Shown here: piece after piece, positions 1 to 7,191 of the stretch
Position numbering within the stretch: the first letter of the stretch is position 1
How the letters are laid out: every line of letters begins with the position of its first letter
Assembly: GCA_902573425.1 (NCBI GenBank)
Contig: CACGJO010000001.1
Location: 124,001-188,000 of the forward strand
From: an uncultured Pelagibacteraceae bacterium
GTDB taxonomy: Bacteria; Pseudomonadota; Alphaproteobacteria; Pelagibacterales; Pelagibacteraceae
Direction: 5' to 3'
DNA: 64,000 nucleotides
Position numbers and translations under genes: made by a program
The notes under the pieces: generated by a model
What the model saw: only the letters and a program-made list of their open reading frames with translations
What the model was told of the DNA's origin: nothing
The model's database searches: none

Positions 1-96
1 TCTATTGAAAAAATACTGGAAAGAAAATTAAGATATAATTTAGATTTAAATGAAATACATGATGTTCCGAATAAAAATTTTAAAGGTCCATTTTAG
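1..96 (+). CDS. 3' end of an upstream gene (partial)
   Basis: An open frame enters from the left edge and ends at a TAG after 31 codons. The residues are mostly charged or polar and carry no recognisable motif. The next gene begins 4 bases after the stop, so this is probably the last part of the preceding gene in the same glycan operon. The function cannot be judged from this fragment. Confidence 0.6.
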   Translation, partial: SIEKILERKLRYNLDLNEIHDVPNKNFKGPF

Positions 97-100
97 TTAA

Positions 101-1105
101 ATGAAAAAAAAAATTTTGGTGCTAGGTAGTTCAAGTTTTTCTGGAGCTTCTTTTATAAAACACCTGCTAGAAAAAAATAATTTTGAAATATTTGGAACTT
201 ATAGAAAAAATAAAAAAAAACCCCTACTTCCTTATAAGTTTTCAAAAAATTACAAAACTTTTAAAAATTTTCGAATCGATTTTTCAAAAAAAAACAAATT
301 ATTAGAAAAATTAATCTTGAAAATAAAACCAGAATATATTGTTGACTTTGCTTCAATATGTATGGTTAATGAAAGTTGGGCAAATTCTGATTATTACTAC
401 AAAGTAAATGTTTCATCAAAAATAAGTTTAATTAAAAGTATATGTAAATATAATTTTTTAAAAAAGTATATCTACATATCTACCCCCGAAGTATTTGGAT
501 CTTCCCAAAAATTTATTGATGAAAATTATTCTAATTATAATCCAAGTACACCGTATGCTAATTCAAAACTTTTAGCTGAAATAATATTAAAAAATTTTCA
601 AAAAAAAAATTTAGTTCCTTTAATAATAGCACGTTTTTCAAATTTTTATGGCCCAGGACAACCGCTATATAGATTAATTCCAAAAATAATTGCATGTATA
701 GATAATAACAAAAAATTTCCAATACAAGGAAATGGTAAGGCTAAGAGAAATTTTATTTATTCAAATGATTTTTGTGATGGTATATACAGAACTATTGTTA
801 AGGGGAAAGTTGGAAAAATTTATCATTTTTCTGGTAGTGAGTTCAAAAGCATTTTAGAGATAATCAATGCAGTGTGCGACTTAAAATCTCATAAAATAAC
901 AAATCTTATAGTAAGAAAGAAAGCTAGAATAAATGAAGATTTAGTCTATAAACTAAGTTCAAAAAAAACTGAGAAAGAATTAAAGTGGAAACCAAAGTTT
1001 AATTTAAAAAGAGGCTTGAAAGAAATGATAATCTACCATAATAGACACTTTAAAAAAATTGCAAATAATGAACTTATATATTTAGATAAAAATTTGAAGA
1101 AATAA
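101..1105 (+). CDS. NAD-dependent sugar epimerase/dehydratase (extended SDR)
   Basis: Predicted 334-residue nucleotide-sugar epimerase or dehydratase. The N-terminal Rossmann loop is GSSSFSGASF (residues 9-18), a variant of GxxGxxG. The catalytic YxxxK is YANSK at 152-156, preceded by STPEVFG at 127-133, which supplies the usual Ser/Thr region. The length fits UDP-glucose 4-epimerase, dTDP-glucose 4,6-dehydratase and GDP-mannose dehydratase relatives, and the substrate cannot be told apart here. It is followed 3 bases later by a DegT-family aminotransferase; the pairing suggests synthesis of an amino sugar or deoxysugar nucleotide for surface glycan. The start is an ATG followed by a run of ten A. 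Confidence 0.85.
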   Translation: MKKKILVLGSSSFSGASFIKHLLEKNNFEIFGTYRKNKKKPLLPYKFSKNYKTFKNFRIDFSKKNKLLEKLILKIKPEYIVDFASICMVNESWANSDYYYKVNVSSKISLIKSICKYNFLKKYIYISTPEVFGSSQKFIDENYSNYNPSTPYANSKLLAEIILKNFQKKNLVPLIIARFSNFYGPGQPLYRLIPKIIACIDNNKKFPIQGNGKAKRNFIYSNDFCDGIYRTIVKGKVGKIYHFSGSEFKSILEIINAVCDLKSHKITNLIVRKKARINEDLVYKLSSKKTEKELKWKPKFNLKRGLKEMIIYHNRHFKKIANNELIYLDKNLKK

Positions 1106-1108
1106 TTT

Positions 1109-2257
1109 ATGAAAAACTTTTTACCACAAGATTATAAAAAAAATCAAAAATTAAAAATAAACCATAGCTATTTAATCGAGCAGTTTGCTGATTACTCAAA
1201 TATTTTTAAAGAAGTCGAAAAAGTTGTAAAAAAAGGAGATTACACTTTAGGTAGTGAAGTTGATAAGTGTGAAAAAAGTTTTGCAAAAAGAACTGGCGCT
1301 AAGTTTGCAATAAGCGTTGGTAATGGAACGGATGCTTTACTGCTTGCCTTGAAAGCTTTGAATATAGGAAGTGGGGATGAAGTAATTACAGTTCCATACA
1401 CTTTTATAGCTACAGTTGGGTCTATCGTAACTGCTGGTGCCAAACCTGTCTTTGTAGATACAAAGTTTGATTACAATATGGATGAAACTCTTGTTGAAAA
1501 GGCTATAACTAAAAAAACTAAAGCTATTATGCCTGTTCACTGGGCCGGAAGACCTTGTGAAATGGATAAAATATATTCTATTGCAAAAAAGTATAAATTA
1601 CATGTGGTTCAAGATAGTGCACATATAATTGGAGCTAAATTTAAGAATAAACATTTAGTAAACTTTGGCGACGCTTGTACATATAGCATGCATCCTCTTA
1701 AAAATTTAAATGTATGGGGTGATGGAGGTTTCATAGTAACTAATAAAAAGCAACTAGCAAAGAAACTTTTTTTATTAAGAAATCATGGCTTAAAAAACAG
1801 AAATACCTGTCAGATTTTTGGTTATAATTCTCGTTTAGACACAATTCAGGCTGCAGTTGCTAATTACAAAATGAAAAATAAACTAGATAATATTACAAAA
1901 AAAAGAATTAATAACGCAAGAGCACTTGATCGCTTACTATTAAAAAATAAAAATGTTGAAACAATTAGAAGGTACAAACACTTAAAAGAAGTATTTCACT
2001 TATATCATATTAATGTAAAGAAAAGAGATGCACTGCAAAAATTTTTGATAAAGAATAATATTGATGCTAAAGTTCACTATCCTACTCCTGTACATCTTCA
2101 ACCAGCTGCAAAATTTTTAAAATACAAAAAAGGTGATTTCCCAGTTTCAGAAAAATTAGCTAAAACATCTTTATCTTTACCCGTTCATGAATTTATAGGA
2201 AAACGTGAGATTAATCATATGGCTAATAAGATTAATAAGTTTTATAAGGATAGATGA
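1109..2257 (+). CDS. DegT/DnrJ/EryC1/StrS sugar aminotransferase
   Basis: A 382-residue PLP-dependent aminotransferase of the family that aminates keto-sugar nucleotides. Visible family features are GNGTDAL (71-77) in the cofactor phosphate-binding region, the PLP-contacting Asp in QDSAH (Asp169), and the Schiff-base Lys198 in the SMHPLKNL segment. The family normally converts a 3- or 4-keto sugar to an amino sugar using glutamate. The upstream epimerase/dehydratase could make the keto sugar and the downstream GT2 could use the product; that order of events is inferred from adjacency only. The C-terminal part has the usual PTPVHLQP-type segment and the length is normal for the family. Confidence 0.9.
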   Translation: MKNFLPQDYKKNQKLKINHSYLIEQFADYSNIFKEVEKVVKKGDYTLGSEVDKCEKSFAKRTGAKFAISVGNGTDALLLALKALNIGSGDEVITVPYTFIATVGSIVTAGAKPVFVDTKFDYNMDETLVEKAITKKTKAIMPVHWAGRPCEMDKIYSIAKKYKLHVVQDSAHIIGAKFKNKHLVNFGDACTYSMHPLKNLNVWGDGGFIVTNKKQLAKKLFLLRNHGLKNRNTCQIFGYNSRLDTIQAAVANYKMKNKLDNITKKRINNARALDRLLLKNKNVETIRRYKHLKEVFHLYHINVKKRDALQKFLIKNNIDAKVHYPTPVHLQPAAKFLKYKKGDFPVSEKLAKTSLSLPVHEFIGKREINHMANKINKFYKDR

Positions 2258-2263
2258 TATTGG

Positions 2264-3004
2264 ATGATTTCTTTTTTCATACCTTTTTACAATGAGGTCA
2301 CGAAACAAAAAAATCTAATTTCTTTTTTAAAAGAATTAAATAAATTCATTAAAAAAAATAAAAACAATAAAAATCAATTTATTTTATATGATGATGGTAG
2401 TAATGATAAAACTTTGGATTATTTAGAAAATTTCAAAAAAAAAATTAAGAAAAAAAATGTAAATATATTACGCAATTATTCTAATAAAGGTGTAGGCTTT
2501 TCTTTTAAAAATAGTTTAAAAAAATGTAAAACTAGATTTATTTTTTTCCTGCCCGGTGACCATGATTTAGATTTCAAATATTTAGATGATATAAATAGTT
2601 ATACAAAGTTAGATTTAACTTTATTTTTCCCAATTAATTTTGAAAAATACTCATCAGGTAGATATTTTTTGACAATGCTCTTTAGAATTATTTACGGTGT
2701 AACTTTCGGAATAAGAGTAAATTATATACAATCACCTTGTTTATATTCTGTGAAAGAACTTTTAAGACACAAATTTAATTCTGACAGGTTTAGTATATGG
2801 CCAGAAATAAATACTAAGCTGTTAAAGTCAAACATAAAATTTACTGAAGTTCCAGTTAAGTTTAAAAAAAAATCAATTGTTGATAGAACAGTTTCGTTTA
2901 AGAATTTACTAGAAGTAATTCTAATGTATCTTCTCACTTTTTTTGAAATTAAAATCTTTAAAAGAAGAAAATATAATCAAAATGCCAAAAAAGTATATTT
3001 ATGA
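2264..3004 (+). CDS. GT2-family glycosyltransferase
   Basis: A 246-residue family 2 glycosyltransferase, GT-A fold. The N-terminus reads SFFIPFYNE, then YDDGSNDKT (residues 42-50) for nucleotide binding, and PGDHDLD (about 97-103) in place of the DxD metal site. The C-terminal third is hydrophobic and basic, suggesting membrane association as in dolichyl/undecaprenyl-phosphate sugar transferases. Its stop overlaps the start of the next gene (ATGA), so it is probably translationally coupled to two small membrane proteins. Donor and acceptor are unknown. Confidence 0.85.
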   Translation: MISFFIPFYNEVTKQKNLISFLKELNKFIKKNKNNKNQFILYDDGSNDKTLDYLENFKKKIKKKNVNILRNYSNKGVGFSFKNSLKKCKTRFIFFLPGDHDLDFKYLDDINSYTKLDLTLFFPINFEKYSSGRYFLTMLFRIIYGVTFGIRVNYIQSPCLYSVKELLRHKFNSDRFSIWPEINTKLLKSNIKFTEVPVKFKKKSIVDRTVSFKNLLEVILMYLLTFFEIKIFKRRKYNQNAKKVYL

Positions 3005-3450
3005 GTTTAATATTAAATACTTTTTATATTGTTACTATTACTGTTTTACTTAAAATTTTCTTTTTAAAAATAATCAAAATTAAAAGAGACTATTGGGTTT
3101 ATTTAACAATACTACTATATTTGTTATCCTCTTTTATTATCTTCTATTATAGAGATTTAAACTATTCTCTTATTGTTATTGTTATAGCTAATGGAATTTT
3201 TTTAGTTAGTTTTTTGCTCTTTTTAACAATAGTTTATAATGAAAGTCCAAGCGTTTATTTTTTGCAAAATATTAATAAAAGAAAATTGAAAAGCATTTTT
3301 TTAAAAAAAAAGTTTGTACAAAAAAGAATGCGATTATTAGTCAGAAGTAAAATGATAGATTTAAAGAAAATGAAACTTACTACTAAAGGAAAAATTTTGA
3401 AAAAATCTATTTTAATTCTGAGCAATATTTTGATCTATGACCATACTTAA
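3001..3450 (+). CDS. small membrane protein with a possible winged-helix tail
   Basis: No known family is recognised with confidence. The first ~85 residues form three hydrophobic segments (about 4-22, 31-48 and 56-79). The remaining ~65 residues are soluble and very basic. They contain a short helical stretch, then LVRSKMID and LKKMKLTTKGKILKKS, which resembles the recognition helix plus wing pattern (LT-x-KG) of winged-helix proteins. That resemblance is by eye only. It starts inside the stop of the glycosyltransferase gene and its own end overlaps the next small membrane gene by 14 bases, so the three genes are probably made together. Confidence 0.65.
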   Translation: MSLILNTFYIVTITVLLKIFFLKIIKIKRDYWVYLTILLYLLSSFIIFYYRDLNYSLIVIVIANGIFLVSFLLFLTIVYNESPSVYFLQNINKRKLKSIFLKKKFVQKRMRLLVRSKMIDLKKMKLTTKGKILKKSILILSNILIYDHT

Positions 3451-3835
3451 AGTATTAATTTTTTTTACAATAATCACAATTATAATTAATTTTTTTCCTG
3501 TAAGGTCTAATTTTAAAATTTTATATAATTTAATATTAAATGTTACTTTAATTTTTAATTTAGCAGTTAATATTGATGAATTGGTAATTTATATATTTAT
3601 TTACTTATCTTACTTATATATAATTTTAAATATTTATACTACAAAGTATAGCTCTATCAGATTGAAAATTATGGAAGGAATCGAAAATAAAAAACAATAT
3701 AGTGATCTTAAACTTTTTGAGGACAGAAAAAAAAGATTTCAAAGAACCTTTAAAAAAAAAGATCCAATTATGAGGCCAATTCTTTTTATAATACTGATCA
3801 AAGCAGTAAACTTTTTTAGATTTTTACTTACATGA
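3437..3835 (+). CDS. small membrane protein of the glycan locus
   Basis: Unrecognised 132-residue protein. It has hydrophobic stretches near 4-20, 27-46 and 49-66, a charged middle (about 68-108) and a final hydrophobic segment at 112-131. The middle contains SSIRLKIMEGI, and the gene overlaps both its neighbours. The pair of small membrane proteins between a GT2 and an SDR suggests a role in membrane-linked glycan synthesis or export, but nothing in the sequence proves that. It is not obviously GtrA, since the helix spacing differs. Confidence 0.6.
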   Translation: MTILKVLIFFTIITIIINFFPVRSNFKILYNLILNVTLIFNLAVNIDELVIYIFIYLSYLYIILNIYTTKYSSIRLKIMEGIENKKQYSDLKLFEDRKKRFQRTFKKKDPIMRPILFIILIKAVNFFRFLLT

Positions 3836-4449
3836 GAGAAAAGAAAAAATGTATAATTTTTGGAGCTTCTGGTAAAATTTCGAAATTAATAATAAAGTAT
3901 TTTATAAAAAAAAATTATTTTATCACTGGTATATCCAAAACATCTAGGATCTATGATAGCAAAGATTATCAACATATTTATTTTGACATTACTAAACCTA
4001 TTTCAAAAAAAATAATAAAAATTATTAATCAAAAAAACTTAAAATTTATTTTTTTTTGTATAAATAAAAATGAGAAAAAGATAGATTTTGAGAAGGATTT
4101 TATTCTTATGGCAAAATACCATTTATTTTTTCCTATTAAAGTAGCTAAACTTTTAAAAAAGAGGAATAATCCAAAAATAATTTTAATGAATTCAGATATT
4201 ATACTCAAAAAAAATGACAATTTTATATATTCTGGCATTAAACTTTTATCATCATACTTTATTAGTTTTACTAAATATTACTTGAGAAAAAAGATAAAAT
4301 TTTATTCTATTCTCATGGGTAAAATAAATTCTTCAAATATAAATAAATTGAACAAAATTTTAAATAAACTTAATAATTATAAAATCCAAAATAAATCAAT
4401 TAACATTAATTTAGATAATAAAAAGAGCATAGCTGTAAAGTTTGATTAA
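3832..4449 (+). CDS. short SDR-type Rossmann protein
   Basis: A 205-residue protein with a short-chain dehydrogenase layout. It shows the cofactor loop GASGKIS (11-17), a Ser at 121 and YSGIK (Tyr133 to Lys137), matching the Ser-Tyr-Lys triad spacing. The usual NNAG-like motif is absent (FFCINKNEK lies in that region), and the C-terminal substrate-binding part is shorter and very Lys/Asn/Ile-rich. It may be a reduced but active reductase or a decaying copy. It begins in the ATGA overlap with the previous membrane protein and ends in a 4-base convergent overlap with the dehydrogenase gene on the other strand. Confidence 0.6.
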   Translation: MREKKKCIIFGASGKISKLIIKYFIKKNYFITGISKTSRIYDSKDYQHIYFDITKPISKKIIKIINQKNLKFIFFCINKNEKKIDFEKDFILMAKYHLFFPIKVAKLLKKRNNPKIILMNSDIILKKNDNFIYSGIKLLSSYFISFTKYYLRKKIKFYSILMGKINSSNINKLNKILNKLNNYKIQNKSININLDNKKSIAVKFD

Positions 4450-5495
4450 TTTATTTTTATTAATGGGCGTAAAACTTTTCCTGATTTAAAATCTGCTATT
4501 GCTTTATTTATATGTTTGAATTGATAAGACTTATAGAATTTTCTTACTTTAGTGAACCCGAATTTTTTGAGGATATTTATATACTTTTTTAAATTTTTTT
4601 CTAACGATACATCGTTTCCTGAAAAACCTGACAAGTTTTTACCAAATATTAAATCATAAGGATTTAATTTTATTAAATTGCCCTTTTTAATATTTCCTGC
4701 AATTATAACTTTGCCTTTAACGTCTAAATTTTTAATTGCAGATTGTGTCATTTTTTCATTTCCAGAAATTTCAATGTTAAGAGCAATATTGCTTTTCTTA
4801 ATTTTCTGATCGACGATTTTTTTATTAAAATAATTCAAAGAACATGCATATTTAACACCAATTTTTTTTGCTATTTTCAGATTTTTTTGATTTTTATCTA
4901 TTGTTATAATTTTTTTAAAGCCCAATTGTTTTAATGCTATTAAAACCATTAGACCGACTCCTCCGATACCATAAATACTCACAAATTTGCCTTTATCAAT
5001 ATCTCTTGCAAATTTATGTACGATACCAAAACCTGTCGGAAGAGCGCATCCAAGTAATGCGGCAATGTCCATTGGTAAATTTTGTGGTATGCTATAAACT
5101 CTGTCTTTTGAAACAATAACGAATTCAGAAAAAGTGCTCACCATACCAGAATTAATCTTTTTATTATTTTTAGTTAGATAATAAGGAAGAATAGATCCCG
5201 ATTCTTTTTTTTTTATCCAAGATAAAACCACCTTTTGACCTTTCTTAAATTTTTTTACATTTTTACCTATTTTAAAAATTGTTCCGCTTGCTTCATGACC
5301 AAGCGAATGAGGAAGATATTTGTCTTTACCTCTATTGCCATAAATTTCATTCATTTGAGATCCACATATATATGTAAAATTTATCTTAATAACGATCTGA
5401 TTTTTTTTTGGATCTGGCACTTCTAGTTTTAGAATTTTTAAAGGTTTTTTAATTTTTTTTAATATTGCTATTGAAGTTTTTAATTTTTCACCCAT
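4446..5495 (-). CDS. zinc-type alcohol dehydrogenase family (MDR)
   Basis: A 349-residue medium-chain dehydrogenase. Catalytic zinc ligands appear as Cys44, the GHE motif (His67, Glu68) and Cys150 in LLGCALPTG, which resembles the class III alcohol dehydrogenase family. The NAD(P) loop is GIGGVG at 176-181. The structural-zinc lobe that normally carries four closely spaced cysteines (around residues 92-120) has none, so only the catalytic zinc is expected. The substrate is unknown; lying against the glycan locus it could act on a sugar alcohol or sugar nucleotide. It is convergent with the short SDR and has 200 bases of non-coding DNA before its start. Confidence 0.85.
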   Translation of the reverse strand: MGEKLKTSIAILKKIKKPLKILKLEVPDPKKNQIVIKINFTYICGSQMNEIYGNRGKDKYLPHSLGHEASGTIFKIGKNVKKFKKGQKVVLSWIKKKESGSILPYYLTKNNKKINSGMVSTFSEFVIVSKDRVYSIPQNLPMDIAALLGCALPTGFGIVHKFARDIDKGKFVSIYGIGGVGLMVLIALKQLGFKKIITIDKNQKNLKIAKKIGVKYACSLNYFNKKIVDQKIKKSNIALNIEISGNEKMTQSAIKNLDVKGKVIIAGNIKKGNLIKLNPYDLIFGKNLSGFSGNDVSLEKNLKKYINILKKFGFTKVRKFYKSYQFKHINKAIADFKSGKVLRPLIKIN

Positions 5496-5587
5496 CGGTT
5501 TTTAGAATATATACTTAACACCAAAAGGCAATAGTGTATTAGCTTACGAAATTTAAAAAAAATTAATTAATTTGATTTTAGGAAAGG

Positions 5588-5630
5588 AATAATGTTACAA
5601 GGTTAATGGCATCTGGCAACAGAACGCCCC
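5588..5630 (+). repeat. 43-bp direct repeat, copy A
   Basis: This 43-bp stretch matches 37 of 43 positions with a second copy at 6247-6289 in the same orientation. The core TGGCAACAGAACGCCCC is identical in both. The pair brackets the small gene at 5696-6067. It is not a recognised riboswitch, tRNA or transposon end to me. Confidence 0.75.
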
Positions 5631-5677
5631 TTCTTATTCTAATATTTTCTTTATTTTATTTAATTTAATTTATATTT

Positions 5678-5695
5678 GGCACACTGCCGGCACAA
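5678..5695 (+). repeat. paired GGCACA motif, left
   Basis: Two GGCACA hexamers 11 bases apart (GGCACACTGCCGGCACAA), ending directly at the stop of the small minus-strand gene. A similar pair in the same orientation lies at 6188-6205. Such short phased repeats resemble arm-type sites for a tyrosine recombinase or a regulator operator; which one is not known. Confidence 0.5.
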
Positions 5696-6067
5696 TTATT
5701 GTCCTTTATATTGACCGTAAGTACCCATAATTGCATTTTGCATCACTTCTTCAAATTTTTTATAATCTTTCTTTGAAAGTGCGTATCTTGGAAAATAATC
5801 TTTAATATTATATTCGTTAAATTTAGAATGCATTTCTAACTCTTTATCGTATTCTTCGGGCCAATTATTGTCTTTTGCAATTCTATACAACATATTTAAA
5901 CCTTTAAGATTATTATCATTAAACATTTCAGCTAAATTTAATATTTGATCTGGGTGATGTTTTGGATCAATTAAAACAATAGCTTTGGCATTATCTAATG
6001 CTTTTTTTAAAAATTTTAATGCCTTAGCAATATCCTTAGCTTCTTTTGATTTAAACAGTCCAAACAT
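5696..6067 (-). CDS. small soluble protein of unknown function between direct repeats
   Basis: A 123-residue hypothetical protein, mostly helical and charged, with no signal peptide or membrane segment. The first 35 residues (MFGLFKSKEAKD and following) look amphipathic. The rest contains aromatic and acidic stretches such as NNWPEEYDKELEMHS and DYFPRYALSKKDY. I do not recognise a family. The gene stands alone on its strand, with 200 and 230 bases of non-coding DNA on either side, which is rare in this compact window. Those flanks hold two direct repeats and two paired GGCACA motifs, so it may be cargo of a small mobile unit. Confidence 0.6.
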   Translation of the reverse strand: MFGLFKSKEAKDIAKALKFLKKALDNAKAIVLIDPKHHPDQILNLAEMFNDNNLKGLNMLYRIAKDNNWPEEYDKELEMHSKFNEYNIKDYFPRYALSKKDYKKFEEVMQNAIMGTYGQYKGQ

Positions 6068-6187
6068 TATAAAATTTTAATATTAATTTTTTAGTAAGTT
6101 TATATAAGAAGTATATTAGATAAGCTGGCAATATATAAAATAGAAATAATTCTGTTATCATTCATTTAAACTATCACAAAAAAGATT

Positions 6188-6205
6188 GGCACAATTCTGG
6201 CACAC
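6188..6205 (+). repeat. paired GGCACA motif, right
   Basis: Two GGCACA hexamers 11 bases apart (GGCACAATTCTGGCACAC), in the same orientation as the pair at 5678-5695 and about 40 bases from the second direct repeat. It lies upstream of the small minus-strand gene and of the plus-strand amidohydrolase gene. Confidence 0.5.
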
Positions 6206-6246
6206 TTTTCTTTAAATTTATCGTTTTTTAATTCAAATTATTCGCG

Positions 6247-6289
6247 AATAATGGTACAAAGTTCGGGGCACCTGGCAACAGAACGCCCC
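6247..6289 (+). repeat. 43-bp direct repeat, copy B
   Basis: Second copy of the repeat at 5588-5630. It ends 8 bases before the amidohydrolase start codon, so it forms that gene's leader. Here GGGGC (6265-6269) and GCCCC (6285-6289) could pair around a 15-base loop. In copy A the left arm is not complementary, so a conserved hairpin is not supported. Confidence 0.75.
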
Positions 6290-6297
6290 CTTTAATA

Positions 6298-7191
6298 ATG
6301 GAATTACCAATTGTAAATCATCCTGAATATGTTGCAAAAATAAATGAAAATAGTGTTTTTCCAATTAAAAAATTTAGTGCACTAGCCAATTATCTTTTAG
6401 AAAAAAAAATAGTAAATAAATTTTATATTCCAAAAGAGTGCTCAATTGAAACTCTAAGTAAATCACATTCAACCAAATATATTAATGATATTAAAAATAA
6501 AACTCTTGATAAAAAGTCTGAGGTTAAAATTGGTTTTCCAATAAATGATAGTGTAATAAAAAGATCTTTTTTAGCAACTGGGGGGACTGTTTTAGCGAGT
6601 AAGTTAGCGTTAGATTTTAAACTTGCATGTAATACTGCAGGTGGTAGTCACCATGCTTCCTATGATTATGGCGCAGGTTACTGTGTTTTTAATGATGTGG
6701 CAGTAGCTGCAAATTACTTAAAGTATCGAAAGAAAATTAAAAAAATTTTAATTTTAGACCTGGACGTCCACCAGGGGAATGGAAACTCTGAGATATTTAA
6801 AAATGATAGAAATATATTTACATTTAGTATGCATTGTATAACTAATTATCCAGCAAAAAAATCAAAGAGTGACTTGGATATAGAACTTGAAGAAAATCTT
6901 GAAGATAAAGATTATCTTAAAATATTAAAAAATAACCTTTTGAAACTTAATAAAATGAACTTTGATTTTGTTTTTTATATAGCTGGAGTTGACGTTCACT
7001 ATCAAGATAAGCTTGGAAAATTAAAATTGACTGATGGTGGTATAAACCAAAGAGAGAAGACAGTAATTGAAAATTTTTTTTCGAACAAAGTGCCTTTATG
7101 CGGTGTCCTTGGGGGTGGATATAATAAAGACTTTAATAAACTTGTAGAATTACATTCAATGTTACATAGAAATTGTTCTAAGTTATTATAA
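6298..7191 (+). CDS. histone deacetylase family amidohydrolase
   Basis: A 297-residue zinc amidohydrolase of the HDAC/acetylpolyamine/acetoin-utilisation superfamily. Catalytic motifs are GGSHHA (tandem His118-His119), DLDVHQGNG (zinc ligands Asp156 and His158), GVDVHYQD for the third zinc Asp, and GGGY near the end. The N-terminus ELPIVNHPEYV matches the start of bacterial family members and supports the ATG chosen, although the repeat copy ends only 8 bases upstream and no clear ribosome-binding site is visible. The bacterial substrate is not defined; acetylated small molecules or protein lysines are the family options. It is followed after 51 bases by a sugar dehydrogenase. Confidence 0.85.
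   Translation: MELPIVNHPEYVAKINENSVFPIKKFSALANYLLEKKIVNKFYIPKECSIETLSKSHSTKYINDIKNKTLDKKSEVKIGFPINDSVIKRSFLATGGTVLASKLALDFKLACNTAGGSHHASYDYGAGYCVFNDVAVAANYLKYRKKIKKILILDLDVHQGNGNSEIFKNDRNIFTFSMHCITNYPAKKSKSDLDIELEENLEDKDYLKILKNNLLKLNKMNFDFVFYIAGVDVHYQDKLGKLKLTDGGINQREKTVIENFFSNKVPLCGVLGGGYNKDFNKLVELHSMLHRNCSKLL

Follow-up and report, generated by a model that had tools for sequence, protein, structure and literature searches.

The single ingredients of the arrangement that we describe here are already known: integration at ssrA (PMC3146451), the accretion of CIMEs (PMC5704250), additive islands with tRNA ends (PMC10872708), and satellites and CALINs (PMC11389934). CIMEs have been described as decayed ICEs or IMEs; they keep attL and attR, lack integration genes, and accrete in tandem at the 3′ end of a gene by site-specific recombination (PMC5704250). 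The ssrA genomic islands of Dehalococcoides integrate at the ssrA 3′ end with tandem ssrA direct repeats and varied cargo, and sixteen of them encode the serine integrase DsiB (PMC3146451). Methylopumilus, a streamlined aquatic bacterium, has an additive flexible genomic island in which 20-bp ends of tRNA-Lys recur, and the islands, from 330 bp upwards, hold mostly unknown genes (PMC10872708). Phage satellites and tycheposons have the att architecture of a tyrosine integrase at an RNA gene, and integron cassettes and CALINs are small gene cassettes in tandem arrays that lack an integrase and are mobilised in trans (PMC11389934).

The unit that we compare with these systems measures 659 bp and lies in the window, by which we mean the whole 64,000-nucleotide stretch of DNA analysed here (C1:124001-188000 of a SAR11 genome, Pelagibacteraceae; coordinates without a contig prefix are those of the window). 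Like a CIME, it retains attL and attR, in the form of core copies and arm pairs at both ends, and has neither integration nor transfer genes, its one ORF encoding 123 aa. SAR11 units differ from CIMEs, however, in their size (0.1-2.8 kb), uniform ends, arm pairs at fixed distances, exchangeable cargo, and lack of any sign of a link to conjugation. No remnant ICE or IME genes were found in the unit, and the closest relative with an integrase is a satellite at tRNA-Met that carries a terminase. As in the Dehalococcoides islands, the borders are direct repeats of the ssrA 3′ end, but the unit has no recombinase gene, DsiB-like or other, and its arm sites are of the tyrosine type. The Methylopumilus islands resemble SAR11 units in their short direct repeats of an RNA-gene end and their mostly unknown genes; the part of that source available to us describes no arm-type sites, integrase-bearing partner or ssrA target.

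A core in the 3′ end of an RNA gene with flanking arm-type repeats is the organisation of RNA-gene-targeted tyrosine integrases (attP arms), and the unit has both. It shares this architecture with satellites (PICIs and tycheposons) but fails to qualify as one, since it carries no integrase or replication and packaging genes of its own; only a 5.67-kb element in genome G005, which does carry satellite genes, meets that definition. Cassettes without integrase, AAA/primase-like or terminase genes would instead parasitise such satellites or phages. Integron cassettes are similar in format, but the SAR11 core duplicates the ssrA 3′ end and has its arm sites at a distance, in place of an attC site (no attC model was run), and no IntI was detected in the host genome (79.5% complete), where the sole PF00589 protein found scores 30 bits against an integrase_gron cut-off of 265. 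An integrase-bearing element in tandem with a cassette was seen only at tRNA-Met in G005, and none at ssrA. Our literature search found no earlier description of SAR11 ssrA cassettes with arm sites, which is weak evidence of novelty given that most subscription papers lay outside the search.

Composition of the 659-bp unit

The original prediction had described two 43-bp direct repeats bracketing an orphan gene, with a GGCACA pair of 11-bp spacing inside each end, no integrase, and a variable glycan locus alongside, and all of these features were confirmed. The repeats occupy 5588-5630 and 6247-6289 and, by count, are identical at 37 of 43 positions; both match the 3′ end of the Rfam alpha_tmRNA model (E 1e-6 and 3e-4). 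An intact ssrA, the permuted alphaproteobacterial tmRNA gene, occupies C1:112871-113169; it falls outside the window, some 16 kb left of the unit. A full mismatch scan of the host genome located core copies, all in one orientation, at C1:113145 (inside ssrA), 114977, 115957 (3 mismatches), 129610 (1 mismatch) and 130269, the last two being window positions 5610 and 6269. Core copies mark off four units in this genome, among them the 659-bp unit. Because both repeats score as the ssrA 3′ end, and the intact gene and further copies of its 3′ end occur in the same genome, the repeats are not a product of chance, and the identity of the core is demonstrated. A weak tmRNA match at C7:39539, next to a resident recombinase, overlaps the start of the recombinase coding sequence and was judged to be fortuitous.

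The left core (5610..5630, plus strand) reproduces the final portion of the permuted tmRNA gene (CATCTGGCAACAGAACGCCCC), with 1 mismatch to the ssrA core. The 22 bp to its left (5588..5609, plus strand) resemble the right-end family of these elements, ATAATGnTACAARGTT, and represent what remains of the preceding unit's right end; that unit is the glycan block. The right part of that block occupies 1..5609, directly left of the left core; the block spans 13.65 kb between the core copies at C1:115957 and C1:129610 and belongs to the same array, outside the 659-bp element. The left arm-type pair, GGCACA-N5-GGCACA with a spacing of 11, lies at 5678..5694 on the plus strand (hexamers at 5678-5683 and 5689-5694), its first base 68 bp from the core start, and is abutted by the stop codon of the cargo gene, which encodes the 123-aa orphan protein on the minus strand (5696..6067). 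This is the single ORF of the 659-bp unit, in which integrase-family matches number zero. The right pair, of the same sequence and spacing, lies at 6188..6204 on the plus strand (6188-6193 and 6199-6204), ends 65 bp before the right core, and is followed at 6205..6268 (plus strand) by a conserved right-end stretch, TTTTTAATTCAAATTATTC-CG-ATAATGnTACAAAGTTCGGGG, that is common to elements with other cargo. The right core (6269..6289, plus strand) is an exact copy of the ssrA 3′ end, CACCTGGCAACAGAACGCCCC. The first chromosomal gene past the array is histone-deacetylase-like (HDAC; 6298..7191, plus strand), and it is directly preceded by a core copy in the relatives G015, G006 and G026 as well. 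No second genome with the window's own 659-bp unit was found, which counts against the interpretation that follows. Our favoured interpretation, which we hold to be likely, is that 5610-6289 is an integrated, non-autonomous integrative cassette, mobilised in trans, with an ssrA core, a GGCACA pair inside each end, and one cargo gene.

Tandem arrays and empty sites at ssrA

Across the Pelagibacteraceae, we analysed the ssrA-downstream DNA of 82 loci, amounting to 1.16 Mb. At least one extra core copy is present at 51 of the 82 loci, and the 106 extra copies are arranged in tandem, all in the orientation of ssrA; not one minus-strand copy occurs in the 1.16 Mb. Single-contig genomes, such as G032, also have arrays. 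The 100 units of at most 3 kb range from 98 to 2776 bp (median 931), and most contain a few small genes. Several relatives have empty sites, for which the original prediction proposed a search, and a filled counterpart with a homologous downstream flank was found: identity directly after the core is 94% over 497 bp for G034/G082, 85% for G053/G094, 84% for G038/G058 and 82% for G061/G143. Both same-orientation arrays and empty and filled sites are therefore matters of observation. An identical arrangement in all relatives, with no empty site, would have refuted the prediction, and arrangements in fact differ among relatives. The predicted likeness to attL and attR with arm sites of a tyrosine recombinase, in the absence of an integrase, agrees with this comparative evidence, but the supposed core repeat is the ssrA 3′ end, and the element is one unit of a tandem array rather than a solitary insertion.

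The prediction would likewise have fallen had the repeats been ordinary leader elements. A role as regulatory leaders or terminators, duplicated by chance or slippage, would suit sequences that are GC-rich for this genome and located between genes, but it is practically untenable for repeats that match the ssrA 3′ end, whose copies always lie downstream of ssrA and in its orientation, and for which empty sites exist.

The farther a core lies from ssrA, the more mismatches it tends to have (rho 0.41, P 3.5e-5, n = 93), a pattern that insertion of new units at the ssrA end would produce; the mismatch difference between the last core copy and the middle copies is not significant (P 0.40). More mismatches in distal cores would also be compatible with strict-sense CIMEs, units left over from the decay of once autonomous phages or satellites integrated at ssrA, now immobile and exchanged only by homologous recombination in their flanks, and the large glycan blocks between core copies fit such homologous exchange. 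Replication or packaging gene fragments would be expected among such leftovers, but none were seen among the unit ORFs listed.

At one locus (L157, on the reverse strand of G158:C4), core copies at 2207 and 2327 delimit a 120-bp unit with little beyond the core and the left arm pair, which is perhaps an emptied cassette.

Arm-type hexamer pairs and candidate integrases

To count as an arm pair, an exact hexamer containing three or more G/C had to recur at 11 bp; 78 comparable units and 437 interior windows were scored. Only 2 of the 437 interior windows have such a pair, against 45 of 78 left ends (Fisher P about 8e-41) and 33 of 78 right ends, and other hexamer spacings are at background, except for 12 and 15 in right ends. 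The pairs are not universal, as the exact left pair is absent from 33 of 78 left ends. Measured from the core start, the left pair begins at 66-68 bp in 30 units and at 76-80 bp in 15, the two classes lying about one helical turn apart; the near-constant position in the 30 units is difficult to reconcile with decayed leftovers. The array motifs are GACGCA, GGCACA, GATCAC(A), GTCACA and GACTCA, and the longest ORF is on the minus strand in 45 of 45 units with an exact left pair.

Rare phage-type tyrosine integrases adjoin tRNA genes or tRNA fragments in this family, and we inspected 11 of them, 10 from genomes and one from a viral contig. In every case, the 60 bp upstream of the start codon include a pair at spacing 11 (exact 5-mers in ten, 5/6 in L167; control about 1%), so that the same geometry is demonstrated at both ends of the units and at real integrase genes. 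The upstream motifs are GACACA, GACGC, GACGTC, TGACGA, GCGTC, GTCGTC, GTCGCA and GTCACA, together with the window's own GGCACA, which precedes the G110 integrase with a spacing of 11. An RKRxGKW...TF..K.DA..WA block is common to the integrase N-termini and precedes the core-binding region; by analogy with known integrase architecture, we infer that this block is an arm-binding domain. An aligned set of eight integrases was too diverse to serve as a search profile. Two further integrases, of 463-464 aa, sit at tRNA-Leu (L210 and L211, in G306 and G302); both were examined and lack the 11-bp arm pair, and they seem to represent a different type of SAR11 integrative element.

The G005 locus (L165:8719-15805, G005:C2) has three tandem tRNA-Met 3′ ends that bound two elements. 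The first, the 5.67-kb element, encodes an integrase, an AAA/primase-like protein and a small terminase (Terminase_2, E 1.7e-9), and the second, of 1.39 kb, has the same core and two small minus-strand genes without an integrase. GACACA pairs stand at both ends of both elements. An autonomous element here adjoins a non-autonomous one, and the two have their core and arm motif in common. A further arm pair follows the last tRNA copy.

Having no integrase of its own, the window's cassette probably borrows one. In the mechanism that we propose, the cargo gene would occupy the place of the integrase gene in autonomous relatives, and an integrase encoded by a satellite or phage would bind the arm pairs (hexamer binding is inferred) and join the core of the cassette to the ssrA 3′ end by recombination, with the tmRNA gene regenerated each time; repeated integration events would then produce the tandem array. 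Supply of the integrase in trans and excision of the cassette as a circle are likewise inferences, as is the route from cell to cell, with which transduction with a helper, vesicles and transformation are all compatible.

An integrase beside the ssrA copies, which the original prediction proposed to look for in the same genome, was sought in the host assembly (79.5% complete) and not found. No ssrA-targeting integrase appeared among the integrase and ssrA positions listed for family genomes, or in viral contigs or phage records. The right-end 29-mer and the 19-mer core plus T had no match in viral scans, and a composite attP had no credible match among phage records. Exact core scans of IMG/VR matched only 8 marine phage contigs, through their own permuted tmRNA gene rather than an attP. 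This missing integrase supports the view that the units are decayed leftovers and, together with the fact that neither excision nor a circular form has been seen, counts against the cassette interpretation. The contigs matched (L064-L071, one of them 242 kb) are T4-like. Their tmRNA gene terminates in a 3′ sequence that does not differ from the SAR11 ssrA core, and a target site may thus be present in phage genomes as well.

Another potential agent is the resident Pelagibacteraceae tyrosine recombinase of 309-326 aa, which might move cassettes as IntI moves those of integrons. It is the only PF00589 protein found in the incomplete host genome, and such a protein occurs in 13 of 14 family genera; its core-binding (SAM-like) domain match, however, begins at residue 17 and leaves little room for an arm-binding domain, no hexamer pair lies upstream of the two copies examined, its scores fall far under the integron-integrase and Xer cut-offs, and its gene is unlinked to ssrA. 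Without an arm-binding N-terminus, and without upstream arm pairs in those two copies, we regard this protein as a quite improbable agent. Pelagibacteraceae genomes mostly have one such divergent recombinase (G000:C7:39886-40428 and homologues), and genomes of the sister family f2 mostly have two strong matches; the Pelagibacteraceae may have lost the usual XerC/XerD pair.

Cargo and its movement between species

If the repeat marks a mobile unit, it should bracket different genes elsewhere, and we found this in other genomes. The window unit has GGCACA ends in common with two units elsewhere, one of 1087 bp in G013 and one of 709 bp in G179, a member of another genus; identity is 82-85% on the left and 83-86% on the right, and the three interiors are unrelated. 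The G013 unit encodes a 214-aa protein with an HNH-like C-terminus (a putative assignment from our own reading of a WHIDHIxP motif, with no Pfam match) together with a 77-aa gene, and the G179 unit encodes a 165-aa secreted protein. Equal ends with different cargo are thus demonstrated, and such conservation of ends while cargo is swapped is not what decayed leftovers predict.

Module 1 of the host array encodes an inverse autotransporter beta-domain (E 3e-35) and a 238-aa secreted protein. Its genes are 97-98% identical to those in G013 and G006, whereas the same genomes match the window at only 77-82% identity in fumC, the HDAC gene and an NTPase-like gene, with fumC and the HDAC gene at 77-81%. 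The contrast between roughly 98% for module 1 and roughly 80% for core genes suggests that horizontal transfer between species has recently taken place at one and the same site, and we consider the transfer of this neighbouring cassette demonstrated. Near-identity across species about 20% diverged is a further argument against immobile, decayed leftovers, an explanation that we regard as unlikely compared to the mobile cassette.

The 123-aa protein belongs to no Pfam, NCBIfam or PHROGs family, a PADLOC CARF match was weak (E 0.003) and not convincing, and a single-sequence fold was of low confidence (pLDDT 47) and uninformative. Across 197 family genomes it has one credible partial homologue (74% over 35 aa), located where a contig of G158 ends. 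At the right end of that stretch (L156, G158:C18:3500-7425) there is a truncated tRNA-Gly 5′ half and then a GACACA-N5-AACACA pair, possibly a cassette site at tRNA-Gly; the proximity of the homologue to the truncated tRNA and arm-like pair suggests that the orphan travels on similar elements. A surface or defence role for the orphan is plausible, as sister units carry small secreted proteins, nuclease-like and restriction genes, but it is untested.

SAR11 bacteria are among the most abundant marine cells, with streamlined genomes that seem poor in mobile elements, and to our knowledge their route of gene gain is an open question. A broader proposal, on which we find the evidence evenly poised, is that SAR11 runs a family-wide cassette system that is integron-like without integrons, in which minimal phage-type att/arm cassettes at ssrA and tRNA genes use the integrases of passing satellites or phages in trans and move secreted-protein, nuclease-like and restriction-modification genes between species. 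A borrowed integrase would explain gene gain and swapping in these very small genomes. The precise site at the ssrA 3′ end, the cassette format, the arm sequences and the integrase-bearing partner make the proposal directly testable in single-cell and metagenomic data, and such a system could offer a handle for gene insertion into hosts that are hard to manipulate.

Larger units of the ssrA arrays carry restriction-modification genes. A 7.5-kb unit (L121, in G125) and a 5.6-kb unit (L127, in G104) at ssrA encode what is probably a Type III restriction-modification pair, and a C5 DNA methyltransferase with neighbouring genes, and these large units are defence cargo at the ssrA array.
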